Source of the DNA: Bacteroidales bacterium
GTDB taxonomy: Bacteria > Bacteroidota > Bacteroidia > Bacteroidales > UBA932
Length of the DNA stretch: 49,646 bases
Assembly: GCA_017620335.1 (NCBI GenBank)
Contig: JAFZQO010000001.1
Span: 1 to 49,646, forward strand
Direction of reading: 5' to 3'
Part shown: in pieces, positions 23,739 through 49,646 of the stretch
How the letters are laid out: each line of letters starts with the position of its first letter
Numbering within the stretch: the stretch's first letter is position 1
Notes under the pieces: model-generated
What the model saw: only the letters and a program-made list of their open reading frames with translations
What the model was told of the DNA's origin: nothing
Database searches by the model: none
Translations under genes and position numbers: made by a program

Positions 23739-24806
23739 TCAGGGCATTATCCTCTTGAAATCCCCGTAAAGGGAGAGTACCCTGTCCACGTAGAAGACGG
23801 TTTCCTCCGGCCTTTGGAAAGCACCCAGTTTCAAAACGCTGTCCACCTGTATCGTGGCCTCGTCCCGCAACTCAGGCATGACGGAGAGAAGGCCTTCCCA
23901 GGTACCAGGGTCCGCGCCGACCGACGCGGCGTAGTTGATGCAGTCAAGAAGCCTCCCTTCCCCGGCATTGAATGCCGCCAGGGTGAACTTAATGAGTTCA
24001 TCCCGGCCTGCCGCCCTGCTCCGGAACATGTCCTGCAGGTACTTGAGGTAGGCGACTCCCGCCTTGAGGTTCTCTTCCGGATTGAAAAGGTCATCCACTC
24101 CCATCTTCGCAGCCGTCGCCGGCATTATCTGCATCAGGCCTTCGGCACCCCTGCGGGAACGGTATTCGATGTGGAACTGCGACTCCTGATAAACGACGGC
24201 GCAGAGCAGGCGCCAGTCCCATCCCAGTTTTCCGGCACCGGCCTGCAGAAGGCTGTCGTAAGGTGACACGACGTTAACTGTGCGCCCCCATTCCGCCCGT
24301 TTGGAGGGATTGTATCGGAGAAGGTACAGGTCGCGCATGGCTTCGTGGCCGTCCGAGGACAGGAAGGCGCCTATCCAGGCGTCGACTTCCTCGAGACCTT
24401 TCCCGAAGTCTTCCCGGACAGCCCATACGGTGAGGCTGTCGACAGGGCGGGAGAAGAGGACGCTGTCGGCCCTCAGCGAGTCTCCAAAGGGAAGGACGAC
24501 TATGTCAACCTTTCCCGCGCGCAGGGAATCCAACCACGAGGAACCCGGGCGGGCGTTGGCGATGAAGGAGAGCGAATCGGCCGTGTCTGCCGCGAAGCGC
24601 CGGAGCAGTTCGTAATTATACCCGACGGTAAGGCCGGGAAGATGGTGTGCGGGATGCCCTGTCTGGATGGCGCATCGCAGGGGCCTGCCCTTGAAGGACA
24701 GGCTTTCGCTGCGTTTCAGGAAGCCGCCGCCGACAAGCACGGATGCGGCCACGGCTATCGCTGCGGCTGTTCCGAACAGTATGTTTACAAGCTTTTTCCT
24801 GCTCAT
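23739..24806 (-). CDS. MltF-like lytic transglycosylase with solute-binding domain
   Basis: 355 residues from the ATG at 24806, four bases after the porin stop; the longer reading would overlap the porin gene. A membrane anchor lies at about 6-27. Residues about 40-175 look like a periplasmic solute-binding (SBP_bac_3) domain. The SLT lysozyme-like domain follows, with the catalytic Glu in AVVYQESQFHIEYRSRRGAEGLMQIMP (about 210-235) and a NPEENLKAGVAYLKYL segment. MltF-type enzymes cut glycan strands to 1,6-anhydromuropeptides. Translation of this gene probably follows the porin. Its 3' end lies 3 bases from the convergent permease gene, with no terminator between. Confidence 0.9.
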   Translation of the reverse strand: MSRKKLVNILFGTAAAIAVAASVLVGGGFLKRSESLSFKGRPLRCAIQTGHPAHHLPGLTVGYNYELLRRFAADTADSLSFIANARPGSSWLDSLRAGKVDIVVLPFGDSLRADSVLFSRPVDSLTVWAVREDFGKGLEEVDAWIGAFLSSDGHEAMRDLYLLRYNPSKRAEWGRTVNVVSPYDSLLQAGAGKLGWDWRLLCAVVYQESQFHIEYRSRRGAEGLMQIMPATAAKMGVDDLFNPEENLKAGVAYLKYLQDMFRSRAAGRDELIKFTLAAFNAGEGRLLDCINYAASVGADPGTWEGLLSVMPELRDEATIQVDSVLKLGAFQRPEETVFYVDRVLSLYGDFKRIMP

Positions 24807-24810
24807 GTCA

Positions 24811-27525
24811 TCAGCGTCCCAGGCTCTGGGGTTCCTGCTGGGCGTTCGGACCATCCTTGCGCGGCTGGGTATAGAAGGGCCAGTAGATGCCCAGCTTGAG
24901 GGCGCGCTGCGTCACTATGTAGCGGTCCGCCGAGAAGTAGTCGTTCTTCTTCATCGGCCATCCCTGGTTGGCATTCTGATACTTCACGAAGATGGTGGCG
25001 CGCTTCCACTGCATGTTCACGAATGCGTCGACGACGGGGCCGTTGTTGTAAACCCGTTCCACCTGGTTGTGGAAGACGCCGAGGGCGGGATTCCAGGACG
25101 GTGAGTTCCAGGCGGTGTTGTAAAGGCCGTTGGCTCCTATCTGCATCAGCAGGATGCCCTGCGAGATCCTGAACTGGATGAAGTACTTGAGGTTGACCGC
25201 CAGGGTGGGGAGGGGGAGTACGTCGGGGTTGGAGCTGACCTGGAAGAGCACCCTGTTGTCCAGATGAAGGACGCCAAGCACGAACTCCTTGTGGAGGTCG
25301 GCAGCCAGTACGCTCATGGGAGTGGTGTTCTGGCGTATCACCCCGAGGGTGTCGTAATAGATGTTGTTCGCCAGCAGGGCGTAGCCCACACCGGCGTCAA
25401 GCTTCCAGCGGGGTATGCTGAGACGGCCCTGCAGGCGCGTGACCGACTGCTTCGAGAAGTCGTTGTCCCACTTGAAATGGTTGGTATACAGGTGCTGGTG
25501 GTAGAACTCCGGCTCATCGAGGCTGGTGTCGAAATGCAGGTCGAGGCTGAGCGGACTCTTGCGGGCGCGGCGGAACGGATAAACGCTCAGGCCGAGGTTG
25601 GCCTCCAGGCTGAGGTCGTTGATCTCGTTCCCGAGGAAGACGTATTCGCCCTTGGCATCCCAGTTTATGTAGTTCCGCAGCCTGCCTTCGACGCCCGCGT
25701 ACAGGTATGCGGAATTCCATGTCACGCTGTGCCTGGTCCTGGTGAAGGTGGGGTCGAACTGATAATAAGTGAGCAGCCTGTCGCCGATGCCGACGTTGAG
25801 CTTGGACACGATGGCATCCTCCGACCATGGCTGCAGACGCAGGAAGAAGCGGTTCTCAAACCTCTGAACGCGCATGGAGTCTGCGGTGGCGGAGGGATTG
25901 ATGTAGTGAATCTTGTTGTAGAATCCGTCCTCTACGGCGTTGGAAGCCCTAACATCGTCGGAATACAGGCGCCTGTATGTCGAGTACTCGGTACTGTGGC
26001 CTATGAAGGCGGTGGTGATGTTCCTGTCGTCAAGAGTATCGGCCCGGGCCCTGGCCTCGCGCCTGGAATCGAGCCATGCTTTCATGTCATCCAGGGAGAG
26101 GGTGTCCCCGGCGGCGGCCACGCTGTCGCGGTAGGCCGCCTCCAGCTCCTTGTCAAGCTTACGGTCCTTGATCCTGTTGATGAAACTGAAGGGAATCCTG
26201 TACTGCTGGTCGAGGAAGAGGGTGTTCTTCTTGACCTTGCTCTTGGCATTGTTGAGGAAGACATTCAGTTCCCTGGCGTTGAGGGTGGTGTCCCGGATGC
26301 CCCCGAGGTCCACCAGGCCGCCGTTCTCGGTACGGTTCACTCCGTTGTAGAGATAGCCGGCGTGCGCCATGTAGCGTTTGCCAAGGTAGTTGGCGGTCAC
26401 CTGGGTGTTCTTGTTCGCGGTAGCCTCGTTGTTGAGTATGCCTCCTCCTCCGAAACGGTCGTACACTAGCGTGAAGTTTAACTCAGGTGTGATGTTCTGA
26501 GAGGTCAGGAGGTGGAGGTTGTCGGACTCCCTGTCGGAGTCTGACAGCAGTGTGCCGAAGTATCCGAGCTCGGTGTAAGGGGTCTTGGTGTTGTACATCG
26601 TGACGTCCGAAGGAGTATGGCTCCAGCTCTCGAGCGCCTCGTAGAACGACACCTTGTCCTTTGACTTCCTGTTGAAATAGTTGTAGTACTGTACCGGTGA
26701 GCCGGCGACGCCGAGCCAGGTGGCGTTGACGTCGTTGCGCAGGAAGGGATAGTCGTAGAAACGGTAGTTGAAGCCCGTGTCCGCAGGGACGTGGGTTATC
26801 TTGTGGAACTCCTGCTCGTGGGTCCAGCGGACTATGCGCTTGTACTGCATCGAATCGGCGAATGCAAAGGTCTCGAGTATGCGCGGCGTCGCTTTCAGTA
26901 TGCTGTCGCGAACGGTCTGCAGGCTGTCCTTCCGCGCCTTTTCCAGTTCAGCCCTGGCGGTCTTTTCCGCTATGCGTTCCTGAGTCCTGAGCCTTCTCTT
27001 CTCCTTGTCCGAGAGGCTTGCATACCAGAGGTCGTACTCCAGTTGCTTCCGCGTCACTGAATCGGTGACATATAGGGAATCGAGCCTCTTGCATTCCAGG
27101 GTGTCCCCCGCAGCGAGCAGCGAATCGGTCAGGAACCTGAAGGTGGGGCGGTCGAAAAGGGCGACGTAGTATTTGTAACGGAAAGGGTCCGTGAGGCGAA
27201 GTGAGTCCGGCGCTTTTATGGTGTCCCTGGCCGTGAGCTTCGGAAGGGTGTCGGCGGGAGCGAGCGTGTCCGCCACGTCGAGACTGTCGGTGAACAGGGA
27301 GTCCGCCAGGGGGTTGGCGTCCATGAGGAAATCCTCCTTCGTCCATCCGCGCTTGTAGCCGTTCACCGGGTAGATGACGGTGTCGGGACGCTCGGTCATC
27401 ACTTCGATGGGGACGCCCACCAGCCTGGTGTCGGTCTTGACTCCGGGGTCGCCCGCCACCGCGCCGGCGATGGCCAGCGTGGTCACGACAAGGGGAAATC
27501 CTATTCTGGAAATTAGACTCTTCAT
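24811..27525 (-). CDS. Putative outer-membrane porin (Porin_10 family)
   Basis: 904 residues from the ATG at 27525 (a TTG three codons upstream is less likely). A signal peptide (MKSLISRIGFPLVVTTLAIAGAVAG) is followed by a charged, Asp/Ser-rich periplasmic stretch with repeated DTL/DSL units (about 60-220). A long beta-strand-rich C-terminal part (about 240-890) with aromatic and alternating hydrophobic residues fits an outer-membrane barrel. I recognise the Bacteroidetes Porin_10-type organisation; the transported molecule is unknown. The lytic transglycosylase gene starts 4 bases downstream, suggesting one envelope operon. Confidence 0.8.
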   Translation of the reverse strand: MKSLISRIGFPLVVTTLAIAGAVAGDPGVKTDTRLVGVPIEVMTERPDTVIYPVNGYKRGWTKEDFLMDANPLADSLFTDSLDVADTLAPADTLPKLTARDTIKAPDSLRLTDPFRYKYYVALFDRPTFRFLTDSLLAAGDTLECKRLDSLYVTDSVTRKQLEYDLWYASLSDKEKRRLRTQERIAEKTARAELEKARKDSLQTVRDSILKATPRILETFAFADSMQYKRIVRWTHEQEFHKITHVPADTGFNYRFYDYPFLRNDVNATWLGVAGSPVQYYNYFNRKSKDKVSFYEALESWSHTPSDVTMYNTKTPYTELGYFGTLLSDSDRESDNLHLLTSQNITPELNFTLVYDRFGGGGILNNEATANKNTQVTANYLGKRYMAHAGYLYNGVNRTENGGLVDLGGIRDTTLNARELNVFLNNAKSKVKKNTLFLDQQYRIPFSFINRIKDRKLDKELEAAYRDSVAAAGDTLSLDDMKAWLDSRREARARADTLDDRNITTAFIGHSTEYSTYRRLYSDDVRASNAVEDGFYNKIHYINPSATADSMRVQRFENRFFLRLQPWSEDAIVSKLNVGIGDRLLTYYQFDPTFTRTRHSVTWNSAYLYAGVEGRLRNYINWDAKGEYVFLGNEINDLSLEANLGLSVYPFRRARKSPLSLDLHFDTSLDEPEFYHQHLYTNHFKWDNDFSKQSVTRLQGRLSIPRWKLDAGVGYALLANNIYYDTLGVIRQNTTPMSVLAADLHKEFVLGVLHLDNRVLFQVSSNPDVLPLPTLAVNLKYFIQFRISQGILLMQIGANGLYNTAWNSPSWNPALGVFHNQVERVYNNGPVVDAFVNMQWKRATIFVKYQNANQGWPMKKNDYFSADRYIVTQRALKLGIYWPFYTQPRKDGPNAQQEPQSLGR

Positions 27526-27596: not shown

Positions 27597-29012
27597 ATGG
27601 ACCGTTTGGAAGCATTGTTCCGTTCATATACAGGCGTTGCGGCAGAAAACTGCCTCAGGATGTCCCCCTCCGGGAGCCGGAGGAGTTACTGCCGTCTCAT
27701 CGCGGGAAACATCTCGCTCATTGGCGTCGCCGGGACGGATAAGGACGAAAACCGTGCCTTCATCGCCCTTTCGCGCCATTTCCGCTCAAAAGGTCTCCGT
27801 GTGCCCGAGGTCCTTGCGGTCAGCCGGGACGGGATGTACTACCTCCAGCAGGACCTGGGGGACAGGCTGCTTTATGACGCGCTGGCGGAGGCGCGCGCGG
27901 CGGGGGCCTACGGCCCGCTCGAGCGCGACCTGCTCCTGCGCGCCATGGCCGCACTCCCTGCCCTGCAGGTCGCCGGCGCGCAGGGCCTCGACTTCAGCGT
28001 CTGCTACCCGACGCAGGCCTTCGACGCCCGCACGGTCGATTTCGACCTCAATTATTTCAAGTACTGTTTCCTCAAGCCCTCACCCGTGGAATTCAACGAG
28101 GAGAAGCTTCAGGACGAGTTCGAAGCCCTGAAGGCCGACCTGCTTTCGGATGATTCCGACACGTTCATGTACAGGGATTTCCAGGCAAGGAACATCATGC
28201 TGCACGAAGGCGATCTGTGGTTCATCGACTTCCAGGGAGGACGCCGCGGACCGGTTTATTACGATGTTGCTTCCTTTGTCTGGCAGGCCAGGGCGCGCTA
28301 CCCCCTGGATTTGAAAGATGAGCTTGTCGACGCATACCTCGATGCCCTGGAGGTTTACATCCCCGTGGACAGGGAAGCCTTCCGGAAAAGACTGCGCATA
28401 TTCGTCCTCTTCCGTACGCTGCAGGTGCTCGGAGCATACGGCTTCCGGGGCCGGATCGAGAAGCGCGCGCATTTCCTCGAAAGCATCCCGTACGCCCTTG
28501 AGAACCTGAGGGAACTGCTCGCAGTGCCTTTTGAATCCTATCCTTACCTGTCCGGCGTCCTATCGGAGCTTGTCCGCACCGGTCCCGCGCTTCCGCCTCC
28601 TCCCGACGGTCTCCTGCATGTGCACATTTACAGTTTTTCCTTCAAGAAGGGCGTCCCCGAGGACCTTTCCGGCAACGGCGGGGGCTATGTCTTCGACTGC
28701 CGCTCGGTCCACAATCCGGGCAAGTACGAGCGCTTCCGCACCATGACCGGGCTGGACCGGGAGGTGCAGGAATTCCTGGAGTCGGACGGCGAGGTCTTCA
28801 CCTTCCTGGGCCACGTATTCCCCCTGGTGGACGCCCATGTGGAGCGCTTCGTCAGCCGCGGCTTCTCGCACCTGCAGGTGTCGTTCGGCTGCACCGGCGG
28901 CCAGCACCGCTCGGCCTACTGCGCCCAGAAGCTCGCCGAGCATCTGTCCGGCCGCGACGGGGTCATGGTACACCTGCATCACCGCGAACTCGGCATAGAA
29001 CGCACGCTATGA
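27597..29012 (+). CDS. AmgK-like sugar kinase fused to a RapZ C-terminal domain
   Basis: 471 residues, two domains. Residues 1-330 are an aminoglycoside-phosphotransferase-fold kinase. The catalytic loop is YRDFQARN, with Asp194 and Asn199, and the metal-binding DFG-equivalent is IDFQGG, with Asp211. Residues about 339-471 match the C-terminal domain of RapZ: DCRSVHNP (367-374) and GCTGGQHRS (431-439). In E. coli that domain binds glucosamine-6-phosphate and small RNAs; the N-terminal P-loop domain of RapZ is absent here and the kinase takes its place. AmgK phosphorylates MurNAc or GlcNAc at the anomeric position in peptidoglycan recycling. The stop overlaps the next ATG (ATGA), so the two genes are probably translated together. 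Confidence 0.85.
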   Translation: MDRLEALFRSYTGVAAENCLRMSPSGSRRSYCRLIAGNISLIGVAGTDKDENRAFIALSRHFRSKGLRVPEVLAVSRDGMYYLQQDLGDRLLYDALAEARAAGAYGPLERDLLLRAMAALPALQVAGAQGLDFSVCYPTQAFDARTVDFDLNYFKYCFLKPSPVEFNEEKLQDEFEALKADLLSDDSDTFMYRDFQARNIMLHEGDLWFIDFQGGRRGPVYYDVASFVWQARARYPLDLKDELVDAYLDALEVYIPVDREAFRKRLRIFVLFRTLQVLGAYGFRGRIEKRAHFLESIPYALENLRELLAVPFESYPYLSGVLSELVRTGPALPPPPDGLLHVHIYSFSFKKGVPEDLSGNGGGYVFDCRSVHNPGKYERFRTMTGLDREVQEFLESDGEVFTFLGHVFPLVDAHVERFVSRGFSHLQVSFGCTGGQHRSAYCAQKLAEHLSGRDGVMVHLHHRELGIERTL

Positions 29013-29791
29013 AGGCCATGATCTTCGCGGCGGGCCTGGGAACCCGCCTGAAACCCATTACCGATACAATCCCCAAGGCACTCGTGCCGGTCTGCGGCGA
29101 GCCGCTGCTGAAGCACGTCGTCATGAAGCTCGCCGCTTCGGGCATCGATGATTTCGTCGTCAACGTCCATCATTTCGCGGAAAAGATCGTCTCGTACCTG
29201 GAGGGGGAGGACCGCTTCGGACTGAAGATAGCCGTCTCCGACGAGACGGGCCGCCTGCTGGAGACCGGAGGCGGCATACTCCACGCCAGGGACCTCCTTC
29301 TGGACGGCGAGCCGGAGGATGGACGTTTCCTCGTCCACAACGTGGACATACTTTCCGACCTGGACATACCCTGGTTCATGGATTCATGGCGCCCCGGAGC
29401 CCTCGCCGTTCTTTTGGTAAGTCCCAGGAAGACACAGCGTTACCTCCTTTTTAACGATGACATGAGGCTGGTCGGCTGGACCAACCTGGCCACGGGCGAA
29501 GTCCGCTCGCCGTATCCCGGCCTCGACCCTTCCGGGTGCACGATGCTGGCTTTCTCCGGCATCCACCAGATATCAAACGGCGTCTTCGGCGTGATGGCGT
29601 CGGAAGGAATGTGGGAACGCTTCCCCATAATGGATTTTTACCTGCGGGTTTGTGACCGCTATCCCATATACGGAACAAAGCCGGCGTCCCTCGAACTCGT
29701 GGACGTCGGCAAGCTTGAAACCCTGGCCGCAGCCGAGGAGTTTATTCTGAAACGAGCTCCGCGCAGCTGCCCTGGGAGCTCAGAGGCTTGA
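29009..29791 (+). CDS. Sugar-1-phosphate nucleotidyltransferase (MurU-like)
   Basis: 260 residues. The N-terminal signature FAAGLGTRLKPITDTIPKALVPV is that of NTP_transferase enzymes that join a sugar-1-phosphate to a nucleotide. HNVDILSDLDI supplies the metal-binding Asp. Next to an AmgK-like kinase it best fits MurU, which makes UDP-MurNAc from MurNAc-1-phosphate; however, sequence alone cannot exclude other sugars (e.g. HddC- or GlmU-like). It overlaps the kinase gene by four bases and the convergent CPBP gene by 50 bases. Confidence 0.85.
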   Translation: MKAMIFAAGLGTRLKPITDTIPKALVPVCGEPLLKHVVMKLAASGIDDFVVNVHHFAEKIVSYLEGEDRFGLKIAVSDETGRLLETGGGILHARDLLLDGEPEDGRFLVHNVDILSDLDIPWFMDSWRPGALAVLLVSPRKTQRYLLFNDDMRLVGWTNLATGEVRSPYPGLDPSGCTMLAFSGIHQISNGVFGVMASEGMWERFPIMDFYLRVCDRYPIYGTKPASLELVDVGKLETLAAAEEFILKRAPRSCPGSSEA

Positions 29792-35041: not shown

Positions 35042-35971
35042 TTAATACAGTGGCGAAGGGTATACGCCCTTGTCGGCCAGTTCCCTGAACTTGGCCACCA
35101 CTGCCGGCCGGTCCTCCTTGTATGTGACGCCGAACCAGCGTGAAGGCGTGGAGAGCACTTCCGTACGTGCCTGTCCGGACTTGACCAGGCAGTCGACGGC
35201 GTAAGGGATGTAGAACTCCTTCTTCATCTCACCGATATTCTTCTCCAGGAAACCTTCGAAGATGGCGGTGCTGCCCTCGAAGTAGTCGGGGGTGAATCCC
35301 CACATGTTCATGGAGCAGAGTGCCTTGCCGTCGAGGACGACGCGCTCGCCTGTGGCGGAGTTGTCGCCGCGGACGGCGCCGTCCGGCTCCAGCATGATGC
35401 TGAGGTGCTCGACTATGTCGGTCAGGTTGTTGTCAGCGTCGTATGAGCAGATGCCGCGGCTGACACCGCCCGATTCGGAAAGGGTGTTGTCCAGTTCGAA
35501 ACCCACGATGGAATAAACTCCGCGGCTGTTTTCGTGCGCGCGGAGCCAGTCGCCGAGTATGCGGAACGAGTCCTTTCCGTAATAGTCGTCACCGTTGATG
35601 ACGGCGAAGGGCTCACGGATGACGTCAGCTGCCATCAATACCGCATGGGCGGTACCCCAGGGCTTCTGGCGTTCGGGGTTGAGCGTGAAACGGGCGGGGA
35701 TCTTGTCCAGTTCCTGGGTGACGAAGACGAACTCGAGAGGCTCGCCGTCGATGCACCTGACACCGGCGTATTTCTGCCGGACGGTCTGCTCCATCTGTTC
35801 GCGGAAATACTCCCGTACGATGTACACGACCTTTCCGAAGCCGGCCTGGACGGCGTCGTAGATGGAATAATCGATGATGGTTTCGCCGGACGGCCCGAGG
35901 CCGTCCATCTGCTTGAGTCCACCGTAGCGGCTGCCCATTCCGGCGGCCAGTACCAACAATGTAGGTTTCAT
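35042..35971 (-). CDS. Sugar-phosphate nucleotidyltransferase
   Basis: 309 residues. The N terminus LVLAAGMGSRYGGLKQMDGLG is the nucleotide-binding signature of NTP_transferase enzymes, and FAVINGDDYYGKDSF contains the metal-binding Asp pair. A long central part (about 110-240) includes GTAHAVLMAADVI for sugar-phosphate binding. This group is common in Bacteroidetes but its sugar is not established; UTP- or dTTP-dependent activity is possible. It is monocistronic, with a promoter divergent from the FtsB-like gene. Confidence 0.82.
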   Translation of the reverse strand: MKPTLLVLAAGMGSRYGGLKQMDGLGPSGETIIDYSIYDAVQAGFGKVVYIVREYFREQMEQTVRQKYAGVRCIDGEPLEFVFVTQELDKIPARFTLNPERQKPWGTAHAVLMAADVIREPFAVINGDDYYGKDSFRILGDWLRAHENSRGVYSIVGFELDNTLSESGGVSRGICSYDADNNLTDIVEHLSIMLEPDGAVRGDNSATGERVVLDGKALCSMNMWGFTPDYFEGSTAIFEGFLEKNIGEMKKEFYIPYAVDCLVKSGQARTEVLSTPSRWFGVTYKEDRPAVVAKFRELADKGVYPSPLY

Positions 35972-38779: not shown

Positions 38780-38832
38780 CACGAAAACCAGGGACATTGA
38801 TTTATTATCAACTCCAAATACAACTTATATTC

Positions 38833-41370
38833 ATGAAAAAACTTTTATTGACGTTGGCGGCGCTGGCCGCTTCGGGGGCATTGAGCGCTAGTGCTCAGAC
38901 CTTGAAAATGAACGATCTCGAGTATTTTGAGGCAAGAGGCACAAATGTGCTCGTTTACAACAACCTTTACAACGGAAGCTTTTACGACGAGAAGTTCGCA
39001 GGCCTCGAAATCATCCAGCGCGGCGAGCGCATCTGCACCGGCGGCGGCGTCCGCCTGATGAACACCCCTGAACAATGGGACATCTTCGGCGACATCACCG
39101 CCAGGGAAGTGGACCGCGCCAAGAGCAGCGTGGAGGTCGAGATGACCTATGCGGACTATGGCTTCGCCCCCAGGCTCAGGGTTACGCCCAAGGACAAGGG
39201 CGTCCTTATCCAGATACTCCTCAGCGAGCCAGTGCCGCAGAACCTGGTCGGCAAGGCCGGCTTCAACCTCGAGTTCTTCCCTGCCTCTTATTTCGGAAAG
39301 AATTATCTTGTGGACGGCAAGGCGAGGATACTGCCCAAATACCCCATGCACGACACCGAGGTGCACCCCGTTTCCGAGAAGATCACGCAGTATTTCGGCG
39401 AATCCACCTTCGACGACAGGGGCAGGGGAGACTTCCTTGTGCCTCTCGCCATGTCCACCGGACACCGGATCGTCCTGGCTCCGGAAGACGACGCCCTCAG
39501 GGTCAGCGTTTCCTCCGAGAGCGAAGTCAGCATCTTTGACGGCCGTCACCTCGCCCAGAACGGCATGTTCGTCCTCCGCTCCCTGCTCCCGGCCGGCAAG
39601 ACTGGTGTCGTCCTTGAGTGGTATCTGGAGCCCAGTGTCTCCGATGACTGGATCCGCAAGCCCAATATCGGCTTTTCCCAGGTAGGTTATTCCCCCGCCC
39701 AGAAGAAGGTCGCCGTGGTGGAGCTCGACAAGAACGACACTCCTGCCGCGACCGCGAAGCTGCTCAAGGTCAACCCTGACGGCTCCAGGACCGTCGCCAA
39801 GACCATCACCGCAAAGTTCTGGGGTGAGTTCCACCACCGTTACAACTACGTTCAGCTGGACTTCTCGGATGTCCGCGAGCCCGGCCTCTACTGCATCGAA
39901 TATCAGGGCGTGGAGACCAACGCCTTCCCCATAGACAAGAGCATCTACAGCGACAAGTGGCATCCTTCCATGGACATCTCGCTCGTAGTAAACATGGACC
40001 ACATGGAGGTCAACGAAGCCTACAGGATCTGGCACGGGCGCGCGAATATGGACGACGCCCTGCAGGCCCCCGCAAATGTCCGTCTGCACGACGGCTATTA
40101 CCAGGGTGACCAGACCAATACAAAGTATCAGCCGCTCGAGCACATTCCCGGTCTTGCGGTCGGCGGATGGTATGATGCCGGCGACTTCGACATCCAGGCC
40201 AATTCCGTCCTCAACACCACTGAGGACCTTGCATATATATGGCGTTATTTCCGTCCCGAGAGGGACCAGACCCTCATCGACGAAAATACACAGTATGCCG
40301 ATATCCACGTTCCAGACGGCATTCCCGACAATGTCCAGCTGATCATGCACGGTACGCTCAATATCAACGCACAGGTCGAGAACATCGGCTTCGTGGCCCA
40401 GGTCATCGGCCAGCCGGACATGCATCACTACCATCATCTCGGTGACGCCCTGACACTTACTGACGGCAAGATTTACGACCCTTCGCTCGCGCGTTACGAG
40501 GTAAGGGGAGACCGTTCCGGAACCCCTGACGACCGCTACGTCTTCACCAGCCGGTTCAGCCCCGCCGGAACGATGCAGGACATCGTTTCCCTGGCCGCCG
40601 CCTACCCGGCCCTCAAGGATTACTTCCCCGAGGAGGCCGAGCGCTCCTTGAAGAATGCCATAATGCTCTGGAACAAGTATTACGAGGCCGCTGCCCCGAA
40701 CAACAACGCCAGCCAGGGCGGCAGGCGCGGGGGCGGCGACTCCAGGATCAATGCAGCCATCGAGCTGTGGTTCGCCACGGGAGATGCCAAGTACAAGGAC
40801 TTCTTCCTTCCCATATTGGAGAACGCGCTCGCGGCGGGTACCTCCGCCAACCTCGCCACCGCGCTCAAGGTCTATCCTTACATGGACAAGGGATTCCAGG
40901 ACAAGGTGAAGGCCCTCGTTCCCGCTTACGTGAGGAATCTCACCACAAACGGCCGTGACAACCCTTACGGCGTCGCCATCACCGGAGCCACCTGGGCGGG
41001 CAACGCCAATGTCATCTCAACCGCTTACAACTGTTACAGGATATGGAAACTGTTCCCTGACATGATCGATCCCGAGTTCGTCCTTGCCGGCATGAACTAT
41101 ATCCTGGGATGCCATCCTTACACCAATTTTTCCTTCGTCACCGCCGTTGGAGTCAATACCAAGAACGCCGCATACGGCAACAACCGTGCGGACTACTCCG
41201 TAATCCCCGGAGGCATCGTCCCCGGCCTTCTCGTCAAGGAGGATTTCTACGAGAACAAGGACGACTATCCGTTCCACTGGGGCGAGAACGAGTGTTGCAT
41301 TAACACCGCTCCCCAGTACGTGCTGCTCTGCCTCGCCGCTGATGAGATAGTCCGGTATCTCAACGATTGA
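38833..41370 (+). CDS. Glycoside hydrolase family 9 enzyme with extra N-terminal domain
   Basis: 845 residues from the ATG at 38833. A signal peptide (MKKLLLTLAALAASGALSASA) is followed by a beta-rich region of about 240 residues with no known match, then a CelD_N-type Ig-like domain (from IGFSQVGYSPAQKKVAVVEL, about 278-365), then the (alpha/alpha)6 GH9 barrel. Catalytic Asp448 and Asp451 lie in WYDAGDF, and the proton donor Glu820 lies in GENECCINTAP. The family cuts beta-1,4-glucans and related chains. A Gly/Arg-rich loop (NNNASQGGRRGGG) near residue 630 is inserted in the barrel. The 3' end overlaps the convergent GH3 gene by 11 bases. Confidence 0.9.
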   Translation: MKKLLLTLAALAASGALSASAQTLKMNDLEYFEARGTNVLVYNNLYNGSFYDEKFAGLEIIQRGERICTGGGVRLMNTPEQWDIFGDITAREVDRAKSSVEVEMTYADYGFAPRLRVTPKDKGVLIQILLSEPVPQNLVGKAGFNLEFFPASYFGKNYLVDGKARILPKYPMHDTEVHPVSEKITQYFGESTFDDRGRGDFLVPLAMSTGHRIVLAPEDDALRVSVSSESEVSIFDGRHLAQNGMFVLRSLLPAGKTGVVLEWYLEPSVSDDWIRKPNIGFSQVGYSPAQKKVAVVELDKNDTPAATAKLLKVNPDGSRTVAKTITAKFWGEFHHRYNYVQLDFSDVREPGLYCIEYQGVETNAFPIDKSIYSDKWHPSMDISLVVNMDHMEVNEAYRIWHGRANMDDALQAPANVRLHDGYYQGDQTNTKYQPLEHIPGLAVGGWYDAGDFDIQANSVLNTTEDLAYIWRYFRPERDQTLIDENTQYADIHVPDGIPDNVQLIMHGTLNINAQVENIGFVAQVIGQPDMHHYHHLGDALTLTDGKIYDPSLARYEVRGDRSGTPDDRYVFTSRFSPAGTMQDIVSLAAAYPALKDYFPEEAERSLKNAIMLWNKYYEAAAPNNNASQGGRRGGGDSRINAAIELWFATGDAKYKDFFLPILENALAAGTSANLATALKVYPYMDKGFQDKVKALVPAYVRNLTTNGRDNPYGVAITGATWAGNANVISTAYNCYRIWKLFPDMIDPEFVLAGMNYILGCHPYTNFSFVTAVGVNTKNAAYGNNRADYSVIPGGIVPGLLVKEDFYENKDDYPFHWGENECCINTAPQYVLLCLAADEIVRYLND

Positions 41371-43687
41371 CCCCGGAGAAATATTCGTCGCGAATACTCT
41401 TTCTGACGTCCCTGCCTTTCAAGCTGCAAACAGCTTCGAGAGGCAGGTTTGCTGAAGAGTTGCCGATGCGGAAGATGTAATCCCCGGCGGAGATGGTCCA
41501 GAGCGGCTTGCCGTCTGATCCTTCGGACCACCAGGCAAGCTGGTCCGGCGAGAGTTCGAAGCTCACTTCCGCGCTCTCGCCCGGTTGCAGGCTTACCTTC
41601 TTGAAGCCCTTGAGCTGCAAGGGTTTGAGAGGTTGGCCGGAGGCGGGGGAAACGTACAATTGGACGACTTCGGAGCCTGCAGTGGGGCCGGTATTGGTCA
41701 CCTTGCAGCTGACTGTTACACCCTTGTCGGAAGTCTTGGCTTCGGCCGGAACGGACAGGTCGGAGCAGCTGAACTTCGTGTATGAGAGACCGTATCCGAA
41801 AGGCCATGCGACCAGTTTGTCGGAAGGGAGTTCGTTGTAGCAGATGAACTCTTCGGACTCCGTCCTGGGGTAGCTGAAGCAAAGCTTCCCGGAGGGGTTG
41901 ACCTTTCCCGAAAGGATGGACGCCACGGCGTTTCCGCCCTCCTCGCCCGGATACCAGGCCTGGAGGATGGCGGCGCAGCCCGCCGCGACGGGCTCCACCA
42001 CCTGCGGCCTTCCGCCGAACACCACGAGCACCACGGGTTTGCCCGTGGCGATGAGGTCCTTCACGAACTCCTCCTGGTCACCGGGCAGGCGGATGCCGTT
42101 CCTGTTGCGGTTCTCGCCGCAGAGGTAGACGTTCTCGCCCATCGCTGCGACGATGACGTCGCTCCTGGTTGCGAGGGCCATCGCGTCGTACCAGTCGGTG
42201 AAGTCCGGTGACTCTATCCTGCGTACGAGCATGCCGCTGATGCGGGCGTCGCCTCCTCTGGCGATTCTGACGTCATCGAGGGTGCTCCAGTCGCATCCCC
42301 TGGCGTATTCTACCTGTCCTGAGTAGTTTGCATCCATCCCTTCCAGCAAGGTGACGACCTTGAGGGATGAAGGGTCGACTTCGTGGCGGTGGAAGAACAG
42401 TTGCATGGACTGGAATGTGTAGTCCCCGAGCATGCTCCAGATGGAATTGGCGTTGGGACCGACAAGAGCGACCTTGAGCCCTTCCCTGAGCGGCAGTATG
42501 CCGTCGTTCTTGAGCATCACGACTGATTCCGCGGCGATGTCGAATGCCAGCTGTCGGTTTTCCGGCTTGTCAAGGTTGAGCGGGCCCTCCTCGTAGAGCT
42601 TCGGCGAAGGGTCCAGAAGGCCGGCCCTCGCCTTCAGCATCAGGGCCCGCTTGACAGACCTCTCCAGGACTTCCTCGGGGATGGAACCGTCCCTGACGAG
42701 CTCGGGAATGAACCTGTAGCTGTAGTTCCACGCGATCTCAAGGTCGTTCCCGGCCATAAGGGCATCGACGGCATATCTCTTGAGCGACTCCTCGTCCCTT
42801 GCGCTGCCTGTCTGGACTGCACCGTAATCGCTGATGACAGCCCCGCCGTATCCGAGATAGTCGCGCAGGATGACATTTATGAGTGTGTCGCTGCATACGG
42901 CATACTCGGAGCGGAACTTGTCGTAGGAAGTCATGACCGACTCGGTGCCGAGCTTGCGTATGATGCTCTCGTGCGGGAGAAGGACTTCTTCGTATATCTC
43001 TTTCCAAGGAAGGGTATTGGCTCCGCCGTATCCGAGGAAGTGTTTGGTCGTGGCGGCCACGCCTTCGCGGAAACCCTTCGACTGAAGACCGGCCACGAAA
43101 GCGCTGCCCATGACCGCGGTGAGATATCCGTCCTCTCCGCATGATTCCTCGATCCTGGGCCAATGGGCCGTGCGGATGACGTCCATCATCGGGGAAAGGG
43201 CGTACTGCTGCCCGACCGAACGCATGTCCCTCGCCGTAGTTTCGGTCTTCGTCCGGATGAGGTCCGGATTCCAGGTGCAGGCTGCGCCGATGGCCTGGGG
43301 ATAAGCCGTAGCCCCCCTTGCAGTAAGGCCCGTCAGCGCCTCTTCATGGAAGATGGCGGGGATGCCGGCGGCGGTCTCGTTCAAGAGATAATCCTGAATG
43401 TCCCGGACCATCTCCCGTATTCCGTCCGCATCCTTGTCCTGCGAACTGGTGGGCTGGCAGATGTGTCCTACGCCGTAGGGGATGATCTCCCGGCATTTTT
43501 CGAGTGAAACTTTCCCGTCGACAAGGAGTTCGCCGGGGTAGATGCCGTACAGTTGGGCCGCCTTCTCTTCGAGGGTGAGCCTGTCATAGACGGAATCGAC
43601 CAGTCTTTTCAACTGACGGTCGGAATCGTTGCAGCCGCAAAGCGCCATGGCCATGATGCAAAAGGGTAAGAGGGCGATTTTTTTCAT
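41360..43687 (-). CDS. Glycoside hydrolase family 3 beta-glycosidase lipoprotein
   Basis: 775 residues. A lipoprotein signal (MKKIALLPFCIMAMALCGC) suggests outer-membrane or surface location. The GH3 barrel includes the KHFLGYG segment and the nucleophile Asp287 in GGAVISDYGAV (Tyr replaces the usual Trp). The (alpha/beta)6 sandwich follows at about 380-600 (AALVGPNANSIWSMLGDYT-like), and a fibronectin-III-like tail ends the protein (about 640-760). Activity is likely beta-glucosidase or beta-xylosidase. The gene starts 36 bases after the DUF4153 gene, with a weak possible -7 box (TATCTATG) between them, so either co-transcription or an own promoter is possible. Confidence 0.92.
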   Translation of the reverse strand: MKKIALLPFCIMAMALCGCNDSDRQLKRLVDSVYDRLTLEEKAAQLYGIYPGELLVDGKVSLEKCREIIPYGVGHICQPTSSQDKDADGIREMVRDIQDYLLNETAAGIPAIFHEEALTGLTARGATAYPQAIGAACTWNPDLIRTKTETTARDMRSVGQQYALSPMMDVIRTAHWPRIEESCGEDGYLTAVMGSAFVAGLQSKGFREGVAATTKHFLGYGGANTLPWKEIYEEVLLPHESIIRKLGTESVMTSYDKFRSEYAVCSDTLINVILRDYLGYGGAVISDYGAVQTGSARDEESLKRYAVDALMAGNDLEIAWNYSYRFIPELVRDGSIPEEVLERSVKRALMLKARAGLLDPSPKLYEEGPLNLDKPENRQLAFDIAAESVVMLKNDGILPLREGLKVALVGPNANSIWSMLGDYTFQSMQLFFHRHEVDPSSLKVVTLLEGMDANYSGQVEYARGCDWSTLDDVRIARGGDARISGMLVRRIESPDFTDWYDAMALATRSDVIVAAMGENVYLCGENRNRNGIRLPGDQEEFVKDLIATGKPVVLVVFGGRPQVVEPVAAGCAAILQAWYPGEEGGNAVASILSGKVNPSGKLCFSYPRTESEEFICYNELPSDKLVAWPFGYGLSYTKFSCSDLSVPAEAKTSDKGVTVSCKVTNTGPTAGSEVVQLYVSPASGQPLKPLQLKGFKKVSLQPGESAEVSFELSPDQLAWWSEGSDGKPLWTISAGDYIFRIGNSSANLPLEAVCSLKGRDVRKSIRDEYFSGVNR

Positions 43688-43723
43688 GTTCTGTTAAAGT
43701 CTTGTAACTGACATAGATACAAG

Positions 43724-45367
43724 CTATTCCGATTTTTTGAAAAGCATATGCTGTCCGGTCGTGAAACTCTGTCCGGGATTATCTCCGTAGTCGGAGATGG
43801 AGGTGAAAACTGCCAGATAGCCGTCGTTGCTGTAGACCAGTGCTTCGTTTCCTTCCGCTCCGCTGTCCAGCCTGTCCTTGATGTCGCACTGAAGCAGGAC
43901 CGTGGCCTTGTCGGGACCGGAATAGAATATGGCGTATTGCTTGTCTTCGTAGTAATGATAGTTCCCGGACGGTATGAACTCAGTGTATTTCCCCAGACTG
44001 ACTGGCTCTTCCAGGCGGTAAACGACCGGTTCGGCCGTAAAGTCTTCCACCCATTGCTCCTTGCCGGCAAGCGTCCAGGAGATCCAGGATGGCATGATAC
44101 CGTACTTACCATACTTTTTCTCAAAGGAATCCTTGTCCATGTTGAGTTTCAGGTATTGCCAGCTGCTTCCGACCGTCTTCCAGTTTCCCAGGAGGGTGCT
44201 GTCGGCGGAAATCGATGCGTAGTCCAATTTCTCCGGGAAACGGCCTTCCTCCAGCACCTGCGGCAGCAATGCATCCAGGCGCTTCTGCTGCCAGCGGATT
44301 CCGAAATCCCTGGCGCTGATGCCCGGGATATATGTGAACAGTGCCAGTGCTGCGGCAAGGATCAACGTCATTATCTGAAAATTGCGGCTTTTCCTGTGAA
44401 CCAGCATGGCCACGAAAAGGGTCATCAGTGCGGATGCCAGAAGCAGGTAGAAACGCTGCCCGGTCATTCCGTATTCCCCGATACGCCGGAGAACGCCGGT
44501 CCATAACAGGATGAGCGGGGCTGCGGCAATGGCCGGGAACCATCTGTAGAACCAGTCGAAATGCCTGTTACCGATCATGTGCTGGAACAGGCAGCACAGA
44601 AGGGCGATGCCGATATAAGAGGCTACCATGTATGCAACGCCTCCATCAGGCAGTTCCCAGCGTATCAGGATCCTGACAATGTACGCGTAAAGGATGAGCG
44701 TATAAAGGATGAGGGCAGGGGAGAGGATGCCGTCCACGACGGTACGTAGCAGCCGCTCGCCTTTCTGCAGCGGTTTTCCGTCGGAAACCGCGCTGCAGCA
44801 CAGGAGCGGGATGAAGTTCATCGCGATGAACATATTGGGATATGTTAACCACTCGTCCTTGAGATTAAGCCCGAAAAGGTAATTGAAGGATGCTACGATG
44901 GCGGAGACGACTGCCATCAGGATCCCTCCGACAATGAAGCATACTGCGATTTTGACGACTGTCCGGAGTATGTTCCTGCCATATGGTCCGTTGTCGAGTT
45001 TCCTGTCTCCTATGACGAGCAGGATGACTGCGAGTATGTATGCGACGACCCAGGGTGCATTGAAAGCAGACAGGGGTTTTCGGAAGAAGAACAGCGGAAT
45101 CCACAGGACCCATGACAGGAAATACAGCCATTTTACCACCGGCCTCCCTTCGCTGAACCGGTGCAGGGTATAGGTCAGGACATAGTGGGGGAAGAACCAC
45201 AGGAAGAAGGTGAAAGCCTTGGACCAGTCAGTGGTGTCGAAAACCTTCTCCGCGAAGACGAATATGATGAAATACGTAAGGCCAAGCAGTGCCTCCACCG
45301 GGAATTCCTTGATACTTAGGGCGAAGCGTCCTGCACCGGAACGGATCCTTTCGGAAAAACGGCTCAT
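43724..45367 (-). CDS. DUF4153 family membrane protein
   Basis: 547 residues. Twelve or so hydrophobic segments cover residues 25-360, including the conserved LNYLFGLN-like and FIAMNFIPLLCCSA stretches; a soluble C-terminal part (about 365-547) follows, with PSWISWTLAGKEQW and SGNYHYYEDKQYAIFY segments. This layout fits DUF4153, an uncharacterised inner-membrane family in Bacteroidetes. It lies directly upstream of the GH3 gene, 36 bases apart on the same strand. A role in polysaccharide uptake is not supported by any motif. Confidence 0.75.
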   Translation of the reverse strand: MSRFSERIRSGAGRFALSIKEFPVEALLGLTYFIIFVFAEKVFDTTDWSKAFTFFLWFFPHYVLTYTLHRFSEGRPVVKWLYFLSWVLWIPLFFFRKPLSAFNAPWVVAYILAVILLVIGDRKLDNGPYGRNILRTVVKIAVCFIVGGILMAVVSAIVASFNYLFGLNLKDEWLTYPNMFIAMNFIPLLCCSAVSDGKPLQKGERLLRTVVDGILSPALILYTLILYAYIVRILIRWELPDGGVAYMVASYIGIALLCCLFQHMIGNRHFDWFYRWFPAIAAAPLILLWTGVLRRIGEYGMTGQRFYLLLASALMTLFVAMLVHRKSRNFQIMTLILAAALALFTYIPGISARDFGIRWQQKRLDALLPQVLEEGRFPEKLDYASISADSTLLGNWKTVGSSWQYLKLNMDKDSFEKKYGKYGIMPSWISWTLAGKEQWVEDFTAEPVVYRLEEPVSLGKYTEFIPSGNYHYYEDKQYAIFYSGPDKATVLLQCDIKDRLDSGAEGNEALVYSNDGYLAVFTSISDYGDNPGQSFTTGQHMLFKKSE

Positions 45368-45466
45368 TGGATAATACTTTATTGACGTTTTTTTGCTTTC
45401 AATTATTATGCCCTTTCATTACATCCGTTTTTTTGCTAAATTAGATGACTTGAATATTTCTATGCT

Positions 45467-48298
45467 ATGAGAAGATTCATCACCTCCTTCCTGTCATTGG
45501 CTGTAATCCTTCTGATTTACGCTTGCAGCGACCCTGTTTCCAAGGAATTGGACGCTTTCCCCCAGGTGTCCGAAAAATCCGCTAACGGCTGGTTCCCCCT
45601 TTCAGGGTCCGTCATATGCTATGATCCCTCCGACTTCAAGGTGGTGGGCATCACGGCCGGTATGCTCTCGGACGACATCGGGCGGGTGACGGGCAGCGGG
45701 GCGGAAGTGCAGGCGCAGACGGCGCTCCCGAAGGGACCGGCCGTCGTAGCCGGCACTGTCGGGCACAGTGCCCTTGTCGACGCCCTGGTCCGTGAAGGAA
45801 AGATTGATGTGTCGGCACTGGAAGGCAAGTGGGAGTCGTACATAGTGCAGCAGGTGCGCCGGAAGGAAGGCGGCCCGCTGCTTGTGGTCGCGGGCAGCGA
45901 CCGCCGCGGCACGGCATTCGGCCTGACGGCCCTCGGCCGCGCCACGGGCGTCTCGCCCTGGTATTTCTGGGCTGACGTCACTCCCGCTGCCAAGGCTGCC
46001 CTGTACGTCCAGCCCGGCCGTTTCCTGCAGAAGGAGCCTTCAGTGCAGTACCGTGGCATCTTCATCAACGACGAGCGCTTCGGCGGCTGGGCGAAATGGG
46101 TCGAGCAGACCTTCGACAAGGAGACAGGCAAGGTCGGGCCTAAGGTCTATGAAAAGGTCTTCGAACTCCTTCTCCGTCTGGGCGGCAATTATCTCTGGCC
46201 CGCGATGCACCCCGGCACCGCCGCTTTCAACGACAATCCCGAGAATGCCCGCCTCGCCGACGACTATGCCATAGTGATGGGCTCCTCGCACTGCGAGCAG
46301 ATGCTCCGCAACAACGAAGGCGAATGGAAGGCGGTCGGCACCTACGGCGACTTCAACTACATCACCAACCGCAAGGTCATGCAGGACTACTGGGAAGAAC
46401 GGGTCAGGACCAACGGGAAGTACGAGAACACTTATACCTTGGGTCTACGTGGCATCCACGACTATCCCATGGAAGGTGCAAATACCACCACGGAGCGCCG
46501 CAACCTCATGCAGCAGGCAATAGACGACCAGCGCGACATGCTCCGGCGCAACATAGACAAGCCTCTCGAGGAGATCCCTCAGGTGCTCTGCACCTACGAG
46601 GAGGTCCTGGATGCATACCATGACGGTCTGGTCATACCTGAAGAGGTCACGATGCTTTGGGCGGACGACAAGCAGGGTTACACCCGCAACCTCTGCAATC
46701 CTGAGGAGTTGAAGCGCAAGGGAGGAGCAGGCATCTATTACCATATCTCCTATCACGGCGACCCTGCCAGCTGGATATGGCTCAGCCCCCTGTCGCCTGC
46801 TTTCATCTCCACCGAGCTTACCAAGGCCTACACGTTCGGGGCCAGGAAGATATGGGTCTTCAACGTAGGCGACATCAAACCCGCCGAGAAGGAGCTGACA
46901 TTCGCCATGCAGCTGGCCTGGGACATAGACCGCTGGAGCCCTGAAAAGGCGCACGGATTCATAAGGGAGTGGGCGGGCTACACTTTTGGCGAGGAGTTCG
47001 CGCAGGAGATATCCGATATCCAGGATGCCTATTACAGGTTCCAGGCTTCCGGAAAGGATGCCCACGTGTACTTCCTGGAGTATCCCGAAGAGCAGATACG
47101 CGCGCGCATCGAGGAGTTCCGCGCCGTCGCCGCCCGGGCCGAGGCCCTGGAGGGCCGTATCCCGGAGCGGCTGCGCGCGGCCTACTTCGAGCTGGTGCTC
47201 TATCCAGTCAAGGGCGCGGAGATGATCAACGAATATCAGCTGCTGTCACGCCTCAGCCTGGCGCATGCCACCTACGGCGACTCTGAAACCGCCCTTAAGG
47301 ATGCCGCCCGTGCCGTCGAAATGTACGACGCCCTCAACGACTGGACGCGCAGATACAATCAGGAATTGCTCGGCGGTAAATGGGATCATTTCTTCGACTG
47401 GAGACCGTACTTCTGGAATGGTTCCAAGGTCATGGACGCTCCCGTGGCTACAATGGAGCTTCTGGACGAAGTCGCTGCCGCCCCCAAGCCCGGCTTCCTC
47501 TCCGTAGACGACGCCCTTTCCGGGGAAGGTGTAGGGATTGACTCTGAAGTGGAGGGAGATATCCAACTCTGGATCAAGGCGTTAAGTCCGATACGCAATT
47601 TCTCCAAGGCTCCGGAGGACAACGTTTTCTGCCGTGTCGTGTCCGGGGGGGCATCATTCAATGCTTCCGCCACTCCCATCAACAACATCTGGCATGCGCC
47701 GTATGTCGGCCCGATGTGGAGCAAGGTGGGTACTATACATCTCAGGAAGGGCTCCAATGTCCTTCGCCTGACGGAGCTCAAGCCGGATGCCAGGATAGAT
47801 GACATCTTCCTCGGAGTCTATCCGCCGTTCCCTGCTGAAAGCCGCCTGTGTGTGCCAGCCGCGGATTATTCCTCCGTGCGTCAGGGCAGGGAGGGAAGGA
47901 TAGCGACTGTCCGGCAACTCGGTTTCAGCGACGGCGTGCTGGTGCTGCCATTCGATACGCCGTCTTATGATGCCGGCAAGCTGGATGACGCCCCTTGCGT
48001 CGAGTTTGACCTCGAACTGAAGGACACTGATACCAGGGTGGAAGTCCGCACCCTGCCTACGCTGCATGTCTATGAAGGCCGCGACGCGCGCTATGCCGTC
48101 CGGCTGGACGACCGCGCGCCCGAGGTCTTCTCCATCCATACGGATGATTTCTCGGCGGAATGGCGCTGGAATGTCCTCCGGGGCTACTCCTTCCGCACCG
48201 TCGACGTCAGGGACGTTCCCGCCGGAAAGCACAGCCTGAAGGTATATCTCCTCGATCCCGGCATCATCCTCCAGGAAGTGAGGGTTTTCGACAGGTAG
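45467..48298 (+). CDS. Glycoside hydrolase family 115 alpha-glucuronidase lipoprotein
   Basis: 943 residues from the ATG at 45467 (an ATG five bases earlier runs into a stop after one codon). A lipoprotein signal (RRFITSFLSLAVILLIYAC) is followed by an N-terminal alpha/beta domain, then the catalytic barrel with family motifs LGGNYLWPAMHPG (about 240-250), LWADDKQGYTRN (about 396-407), YHISYHGDPASWIWLSPLSP and KIWVFNVGDIKPAEKEL, and C-terminal helical and beta domains. GH115 enzymes remove (4-O-methyl)glucuronic acid from xylan, also from internal xyloses. A T-run with GCTAAATTA precedes the gene. Its stop is 4 bases from the convergent GH43 stop. Confidence 0.94.
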   Translation: MRRFITSFLSLAVILLIYACSDPVSKELDAFPQVSEKSANGWFPLSGSVICYDPSDFKVVGITAGMLSDDIGRVTGSGAEVQAQTALPKGPAVVAGTVGHSALVDALVREGKIDVSALEGKWESYIVQQVRRKEGGPLLVVAGSDRRGTAFGLTALGRATGVSPWYFWADVTPAAKAALYVQPGRFLQKEPSVQYRGIFINDERFGGWAKWVEQTFDKETGKVGPKVYEKVFELLLRLGGNYLWPAMHPGTAAFNDNPENARLADDYAIVMGSSHCEQMLRNNEGEWKAVGTYGDFNYITNRKVMQDYWEERVRTNGKYENTYTLGLRGIHDYPMEGANTTTERRNLMQQAIDDQRDMLRRNIDKPLEEIPQVLCTYEEVLDAYHDGLVIPEEVTMLWADDKQGYTRNLCNPEELKRKGGAGIYYHISYHGDPASWIWLSPLSPAFISTELTKAYTFGARKIWVFNVGDIKPAEKELTFAMQLAWDIDRWSPEKAHGFIREWAGYTFGEEFAQEISDIQDAYYRFQASGKDAHVYFLEYPEEQIRARIEEFRAVAARAEALEGRIPERLRAAYFELVLYPVKGAEMINEYQLLSRLSLAHATYGDSETALKDAARAVEMYDALNDWTRRYNQELLGGKWDHFFDWRPYFWNGSKVMDAPVATMELLDEVAAAPKPGFLSVDDALSGEGVGIDSEVEGDIQLWIKALSPIRNFSKAPEDNVFCRVVSGGASFNASATPINNIWHAPYVGPMWSKVGTIHLRKGSNVLRLTELKPDARIDDIFLGVYPPFPAESRLCVPAADYSSVRQGREGRIATVRQLGFSDGVLVLPFDTPSYDAGKLDDAPCVEFDLELKDTDTRVEVRTLPTLHVYEGRDARYAVRLDDRAPEVFSIHTDDFSAEWRWNVLRGYSFRTVDVRDVPAGKHSLKVYLLDPGIILQEVRVFDR

Positions 48299-48302
48299 AC
48301 GC

Positions 48303-49646
48303 TTATCTCCTCTGTGCCTCTCCGTCCAGCGGGAGGTTTGAGAAAACCGGCGTCGCGACTGCCGGAGCGTCATATCCGTCAGGATATCCGAAGACCGTGA
48401 AGTCGATGATGCCCAGGGGATTGTTTTTCGGCCAGTCAGTTACCGTCAGCCTTACGAAACGGCAGTTCACCGGAGCGAATCCTTCGTATATGGTGTCCTT
48501 CGCCGTGGTGTTCCCGGTCTTGTCAAGCACCGTCACGTACTTCTCACCATCCTGAGAGACCTCAAGCTTGTATTTGTATACCGGCAGCGTCTGTGCGGCG
48601 CCGAAGCCCCTGCGCCCGCCGCTGAACATGACGCGCATGGCGTCGACGGTGAAGTGCTGGACTACGTCGAAGCGGGTGGCGGGGGAGAGTTCCACGGTAA
48701 TGGACGGCTGCGCGTCATCCGCGGCGGGCATCCATACCGTACCGCTGTAATTGTCCACCGCGAAAGCGGCAGGATATCCGTTCTGCTGAGAGGAGAACTT
48801 CGAAAGCGCGTTCATAGCATTCATCTTGTTGATTGTCACGGGGATGGATGCCGGTACAACGTCATCCGCAACCGTTCCCGGAGCCGGCTGGGGAGTGTCG
48901 GTGACGGTACAGTACATAAGCCCGTCGGAGTCGAACTCCACCTTGTCCATGCCTATCCTGCGGCCTCCGGGAGGATTGGAGAGCACGATGGTGTAGAACT
49001 GCCACCATTCATCCTTGTCCCTGAGTTTTACGATGGAACCGTGGGCGGTGCCGGTGACGAGGCCCTCGGTCTTGCGCAGCAGGGGATTGTTCGGCGCATA
49101 GGTGTACGGACCGAGCGGGGAAGTGGCGGTGTAATAGCCTTCGGCATACGTCTTCCACTGGGTTCCGGAAGCCGAATACTCTAGATAGTAGATGCCTTTC
49201 CTCTTGATCACCCAGGGGCCTTCTATCCATGCCACTCCGGGGTACTCGTTCATTTCTCCGTACCTCTCCCAGGCGTGCATGGGATTGAAACCGAACAGGT
49301 GGGTGGGAGTCCCGACGAAGGTTGTCAGATCATTCGGATCGAGCTTGACGCCGTAGATGCCGCTGATGCCCCTGCCGGGCCAGAACAGGTACGGCTGGTT
49401 GTCGTCGTCGATGAAGATCTTGGTGTCGAAGCCTCCGTTCCAGCCGAGTTCCACCGGACCGGTGTTCTTGAACAGTCCGAGATCCGTGTAGGGACCGAGG
49501 GGATTGTCCGCGACATAAACGTGGTCGGTATTGCCGGTGAGATAGAACTTGCCGTTGTACTTCACCAGGTCAGGAGCGACGGGGATATGCTCCACCGCGT
49601 GGAAATCCCAGTTCAGCAGGTCGTCGGAGACCCACATGCCTCCTCC
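48303..49646 (-). CDS. Glycoside hydrolase family 43 enzyme with C-terminal F5/8-type domain (5' partial)
   Basis: At least 447 residues; the reading frame is open to the right edge (GGGMWVSDD...), so the start and the N-terminal catalytic Asp of GH43 lie beyond the window. Visible five-bladed propeller pieces are YNGKFYLTGN, DTKIFIDDDNQPYLFWP (the second Asp region), the proton-donor Glu in AWIEGPWV, and HGSIVKLRDKDEWWQFY. A discoidin-like (F5/8, CBM32-type) domain spans about the last 140 residues (TVWMPAADDAQPSITVELSPATRFDVV, FVRLTVTDWPKNNPLGIIDFTVFG). The likely activity is beta-xylosidase or alpha-arabinofuranosidase. Confidence 0.88.
   Translation of the reverse strand, partial: GGGMWVSDDLLNWDFHAVEHIPVAPDLVKYNGKFYLTGNTDHVYVADNPLGPYTDLGLFKNTGPVELGWNGGFDTKIFIDDDNQPYLFWPGRGISGIYGVKLDPNDLTTFVGTPTHLFGFNPMHAWERYGEMNEYPGVAWIEGPWVIKRKGIYYLEYSASGTQWKTYAEGYYTATSPLGPYTYAPNNPLLRKTEGLVTGTAHGSIVKLRDKDEWWQFYTIVLSNPPGGRRIGMDKVEFDSDGLMYCTVTDTPQPAPGTVADDVVPASIPVTINKMNAMNALSKFSSQQNGYPAAFAVDNYSGTVWMPAADDAQPSITVELSPATRFDVVQHFTVDAMRVMFSGGRRGFGAAQTLPVYKYKLEVSQDGEKYVTVLDKTGNTTAKDTIYEGFAPVNCRFVRLTVTDWPKNNPLGIIDFTVFGYPDGYDAPAVATPVFSNLPLDGEAQRR

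Follow-up and report, generated by a model that had tools for sequence, protein, structure and literature searches.

Kinase-RapZ_C fusions paired with MurU-like nucleotidyltransferases in Bacteroidota: a probable module for N-acetylmuramic acid salvage

Among the described peptidoglycan recycling routes, the closest to the locus reported here is the AmgK-MurU salvage pathway of Pseudomonas and Caulobacter, which comprises AnmK, MupP, AmgK and MurU; AnmK makes N-acetylmuramic acid 6-phosphate (MurNAc-6-P), and MupP is a MurNAc-6-P phosphatase of the haloacid dehalogenase (HAD) type. The other relevant protein is RapZ, which is well studied for connecting the supply of amino sugars with small RNAs; a phosphatase-like loop has been remarked on in the Escherichia coli protein (PMC7199280). 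The C-terminal domain of E. coli RapZ is reported to bind glucosamine-6-phosphate (GlcN6P), and the C247A/S mutants to be inactive (PMC9841335). Here we analyse a stretch of 49,646 nucleotides from a Bacteroidales bacterium (contig JAFZQO010000001.1; hereafter the window), which encodes a kinase of the aminoglycoside phosphotransferase (APH) fold fused to a complete RapZ C-terminal domain (RapZ_C), followed by a MurU-like nucleotidyltransferase (Table 1). The fusion and its ATGA-overlapping partner, proposed in an initial annotation, were confirmed by open reading frame (ORF) and domain searches. As in Pseudomonas and Caulobacter, an APH-fold kinase is thus encoded adjacent to a MurU-like uridylyltransferase; unlike in that system, the kinase bears RapZ_C, both proteins fall far below the curated cut-offs, and AnmK was not found in the window's genome. 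RapZ_C is comparable to MupP in its proposed job only, and the domain search gave no HAD match in the fusion protein. In contrast to RapZ/YvcJ family proteins, the fusion has a glycine-rich GNGGG insertion and, as the initial annotation had noticed, lacks the P-loop N-terminal domain (no PF03668 match in the fusion or in its genome, G000); its score on the NCBIfam RapZ equivalog model, 98 bits, is short of the 244-bit cut-off.

We propose that the kinase and its MurU-like partner probably constitute a MurNAc salvage module, as homology, genomic context and the literature suggest. The kinase domain would phosphorylate free MurNAc, and perhaps N-acetylglucosamine (GlcNAc) too, at C1 in the manner of AmgK, and the MurU-like enzyme would convert MurNAc-1-P to UDP-MurNAc, bypassing de novo synthesis. 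The catalytic Asp194 and Asn199 and the DFG-like Asp211 of the kinase are invariant in 48/48 sequences, and its top NCBIfam kinase models are those of AmgK (57 bits) and not of choline or aminoglycoside kinases, in line with what the initial annotation had assumed. Since the equivalog cut-off of 550 bits is missed, we call the kinase AmgK-like rather than AmgK. The partner carries an NTP_transferase domain; its nearest sequence in the PDB is MurU (4y7t, E 3.3e-22), and its best NCBIfam transferase model is also MurU (118 bits, below the 250-bit equivalog cut-off). The missed cut-offs would also suit a pair acting on another sugar, such as GlcNAc, N-acetylgalactosamine or heptose, which would be compatible with each of the roles of RapZ_C weighed below; moreover, GlcNAc appears in the names of the AmgK models as well, and N-acetylhexosamine 1-kinase and glucosamine kinase are further matches to the kinase fold. 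However, the partner scores higher on MurU models than on heptose or other transferase models, distant homologues of the pair are linked to NamZ, and the fusion is found in genomes without MurA and MurB matches; we consider a different sugar unlikely.

The NamZ linkage was seen in family f18, which accounts for all 63 additional genomes that encode a more remote AmgK-like kinase (E between 1e-10 and 1e-22) and no RapZ_C. In all five f18 loci examined (L168-L172), the AmgK-like kinase, MurU-like and NamZ genes stand in a row, which we regard as a compact operon for MurNAc salvage that lacks RapZ_C; since NamZ is an exo-N-acetylmuramidase, its position supports MurNAc as the sugar. The mere presence of NamZ proved uninformative as a correlate, being found in 286/296 genomes (41/43 in a smaller set). 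In two of these loci (L169 and L172) a sodium:solute symporter gene, Pfam-checked in L169, comes next after NamZ.

Further evidence comes from Tannerella forsythia. MurA and MurB were both without a match in 4/59 genomes, of which G314 and G316 are small (1.6 and 1.9 Mb) and probably incomplete, and G341 and G344 carry the whole fusion. The MurK protein of G341 is identical over 283/283 residues to PDB 8oqw and also matches 8ow9; because the latter is listed as T. forsythia MurK with MurNAc (PMC10465942), we assign G341 to T. forsythia. Its fusion is of the window's type, 56% identical, with an overlapping MurU gene alongside. T. forsythia is reported to make UDP-MurNAc through AmgK and MurU (PMC7670621), and its AmgK and MurU expressed in E. 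coli are described as a positive control for MurNAc-probe labelling (PMC13041923). Judging from sequence comparison, the AmgK of these reports would be the kinase-RapZ_C fusion of G341. Two APH proteins of G341 were scanned, a third frame of 254 amino acids being left out, and only the fusion matches the AmgK models (both of them). The other, a 362-amino-acid kinase which we take to be NahK-like, was provisionally set aside as T. forsythia AmgK, as it gave no NCBIfam match at E 0.001 against the two of the fusion. T. forsythia appears to depend on the fusion and MurU module; G344 may represent a second MurNAc auxotroph, or its genome may be incomplete.

Kinase-RapZ_C fusions are widespread among Bacteroidales and extend to other Bacteroidota. 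Relatives were collected by pattern search with tblastn confirmation, the best 80 of at least 589 being analysed, and the matches listed include Parabacteroides, Bacteroides, Phocaeicola, Prevotellaceae, Muribaculum, Tannerella, Paludibacter, Ignavibacteriales and Calditrichia records. A match was present in 49/59 genomes of the family that includes the Tannerella-like genome G299. Among 296 genomes drawn from the phylum, RapZ_C was detected with the Pfam model in 36, and all 36 also encode a close homologue in a search with the kinase domain (E<1e-40), as against 1/260 of the others (G009; Fisher 1.4e-45, with genome relatedness ignored). Additionally, a metagenome-assembled genome (MAG) of Candidatus Sulfotelmatobacter (G308; locus L108 on contig JASHQK010000275.1) encodes both a fusion and a classical P-loop RapZ; its fusion groups with a Bacteroidales sequence in the tree (92/77), by misbinning or transfer.

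Pocket conservation and co-occurrence suggest that RapZ_C binds phosphorylated amino sugars and is linked to the salvage pathway. We aligned 115 RapZ_C sequences (L107, whose frame runs off the contig and has no motif, was dropped from 116) and compared pocket residues in this sequence alignment, numbered after E. coli RapZ. Of the six pocket positions, whose retention the initial annotation had put forward as a check, five (Cys247, Thr248, Gly249, His252 and Arg253) are identical in 115/115, and the sixth, His190, is replaced by Gly in every sequence; unlike in E. coli RapZ, the Trp191 position is Arg or Lys in 114/115. Asp367, Arg369, Gly361-363 and Gly375 (window fusion numbering) are invariant as well. 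The Cys and Arg of the C-X5-R-S/T loop, which sits between a strand and a helix, are kept in 36/36 domains found by the Pfam model; this is the independent count, as the 80 loci were retrieved with patterns that contained the loop motif. The loop is shared with the Cys-X5-Arg phosphatases of the protein tyrosine phosphatase superfamily, members of which occur in the structure-match list for RapZ_C; the overall similarity is weak, and a phosphatase role is putative. The sugar-phosphate domain of 6-phosphofructokinase shares 8% identity with RapZ_C in alignment, and its binding pocket is stated to be not conserved in RapZ (PMC5737377).

The CX5R loop could release phosphate from an amino-sugar 6-phosphate, MurNAc-6-P being the likeliest substrate, with Asp367 as a candidate general acid; it would supply free MurNAc to the kinase, which is the job of MupP in Pseudomonas, and three consecutive pathway enzymes would thus be fused or co-encoded. 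We hold the whole salvage scheme, phosphatase step included, with less than even confidence. The presence of RapZ_C in 36 of the 37 close-kinase genomes together with the unvarying loop counts for a phosphatase, and its free-standing and unlinked occurrences suit an enzyme. Since AnmK makes MurNAc-6-P, it also counts for this step that RapZ_C is present in 25/25 kinase-bearing genomes with AnmK (G216 among them on a weak match), compared with 11/75 kinase-bearing genomes without it, that is, not among the 206 AnmK-positive genomes. Several observations, however, weigh against a phosphatase: the AnmK contrast comes mainly from one family, AnmK as a positive predictor of RapZ_C shows no clear enrichment (25/36 vs 206/296), ten other RapZ_C genomes, besides that of the window, are likewise without AnmK, and the His190 position is occupied by Gly throughout.

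Alternatively, RapZ_C may be a sensor that binds GlcN6P or a MurNAc phosphate without turnover and tunes the kinase, balancing salvage against de novo synthesis; the sensing of an amino-sugar phosphate suggested by the initial annotation is one of two live readings, the phosphatase being the other. The GlcN6P binding of the E. coli domain offers a precedent (PMC9841335), five of six pocket positions are kept, and the domain is retained in T. forsythia and in the AnmK-less genome of the window, where a source of MurNAc-6-P is not known. The fusion of a regulatory domain to an enzyme is, moreover, a common route to allosteric control. Yet a free-standing or unlinked RapZ_C would need a separate route to the kinase, it is odd for a regulator to be so rarely absent where a close kinase is present, and the loss of His190 tells against a sensor too. 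We regard a sensor as almost as probable as a phosphatase, which we favour by a narrow margin.

Gene arrangement bears on a third role, in which RapZ_C would be a dimerisation or channelling scaffold joining the kinase and MurU, with the pocket a relic. The RapZ C-terminal domain is reported to form dimers in E. coli (PMC5737377, PMC9841335), and in the loci studied here it is typically encoded between the two enzymes: a MurU-like gene lies directly downstream in 78/110 loci, the remainder being 22 fusions without MurU in the locus, 6 with a farther MurU, 2 with no room and 2 solitary RapZ_C. Retrieved loci span about 1.5 kb past the match, so some rows without MurU may be short views, and the window itself is counted among the six with a farther MurU solely through an upstream extension of its open frame. 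The MurU start was located by motif in 57/80 named loci, 19 of which show a 4-nt overlap. In L156-L161 (f5) and L162, kinase, RapZ_C and MurU are encoded by three adjacent, unfused genes whose order is unchanged, and one MAG contig (L075) encodes all three in a single ORF, although an indel at the gene overlap could mimic such a triple fusion. In G180 and G271, by contrast, RapZ_C and the kinase are unlinked (on different contigs and 547 kb apart, respectively), with no MurU near either. These unlinked cases, and the fact that a relic should not keep the CX5R loop in every Pfam-found domain, make a purely structural role quite improbable.

The initial annotation had also raised the possibility that RapZ_C binds RNA to control the synthesis of amino sugars. 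Such a role would parallel the action of RapZ on GlmZ. Some RNA-contact positions are indeed mostly basic (K170 is Lys/Arg in 106/115, R184 is Arg in 115/115 and R196 is Lys/Arg in 100/115), but R238 is Phe in 112/115, K251 is Gln in 107/115, R211 is mostly non-basic, and His190 is replaced; because several contact residues are mostly lost, RNA control is unlikely. Furthermore, the window fusion has no basic tail, and an Rfam scan of the window at gathering thresholds, made in search of a small RNA partner, returned a tRNA as its sole match. E. coli RapZ is reported to require a tetramer assembled with its N-terminal domain (PMC9841335), and PF03668 was not found in 23/24 genomes searched. We consider an RNA regulator very improbable.

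If the phosphatase step is accepted, RapZ_C could be an ancestral MurNAc-6-phosphate phosphatase that in Bacteroidota forms, together with the AmgK-like kinase and MurU, a fused or co-encoded pathway running from MurNAc-6-P through MurNAc and MurNAc-1-P to UDP-MurNAc, and E. coli RapZ could be a derived form, a GlcN6P sensor and small RNA binder built on the enzyme; the change of His190-Trp191 to Gly-Arg/Lys would give room and positive charge for the lactyl group. This extension we find rather doubtful. RapZ_C may have begun in a cell-wall recycling pathway, and a large natural RapZ_C family without RNA machinery makes the original chemistry of the domain directly testable. The parts are known already; we found neither the combination nor its spread nor the close tie to AmgK-like kinases in the open-access literature searched, most subscription papers lying outside the search. 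With RapZ_C linked to a likely salvage pair both in gut bacteria and in T. forsythia, a MurNAc auxotroph, the domain would complete a route of peptidoglycan recycling in Bacteroidota or put a control on it.

Table 1. Coordinates of the fusion, its domains and its partner in the window
Feature	Position	Strand	Basis
AmgK-like kinase / RapZ_C fusion, 471 aa	27597..29012	+	ORF and domain search
Kinase domain (approximately residues 1-333) with Asp194, Asn199 and Asp211 of catalytic type	27597..28595	+	
RapZ_C domain, residues 341-465, CX5R loop Cys432-Arg438	28617..28991	+	domain match
MurU-like sugar-1-phosphate nucleotidyltransferase, 260 aa, ATGA overlap with fusion	29009..29791	+	

Within the kinase tree, split genes nest within fused ones on a weakly supported backbone, so that an ancestral fused form with later splits is only plausible. 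In G324, G348 and G310, kinase and RapZ_C occupy adjacent separate frames in a family otherwise mostly fused, and these are either split genes or frameshifts. In G271 (L155, 6776-8508, minus strand), a major facilitator superfamily transporter frame comes immediately after the solitary RapZ_C frame, on the same strand.

Around the fusion, a porin neighbour recurs in 11/80 loci and an SLT neighbour in 10/80; past MurU, no further neighbour recurs widely in the 80 loci. The window's SLT transglycosylase (23739-24854, minus strand), which is presumably MltF-like, has a weak SBP_bac_3 match and adjoins a Porin_10 gene. A 309-amino-acid NTP_transferase-like protein is encoded at 35042-35971 (minus strand), with homologues near the fusion in 6/80 loci. 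Finally, positions 38797-49637 hold a cluster of GH9, GH3, GH115 and GH43 glycoside hydrolase genes, which suggests the use of plant polysaccharides.
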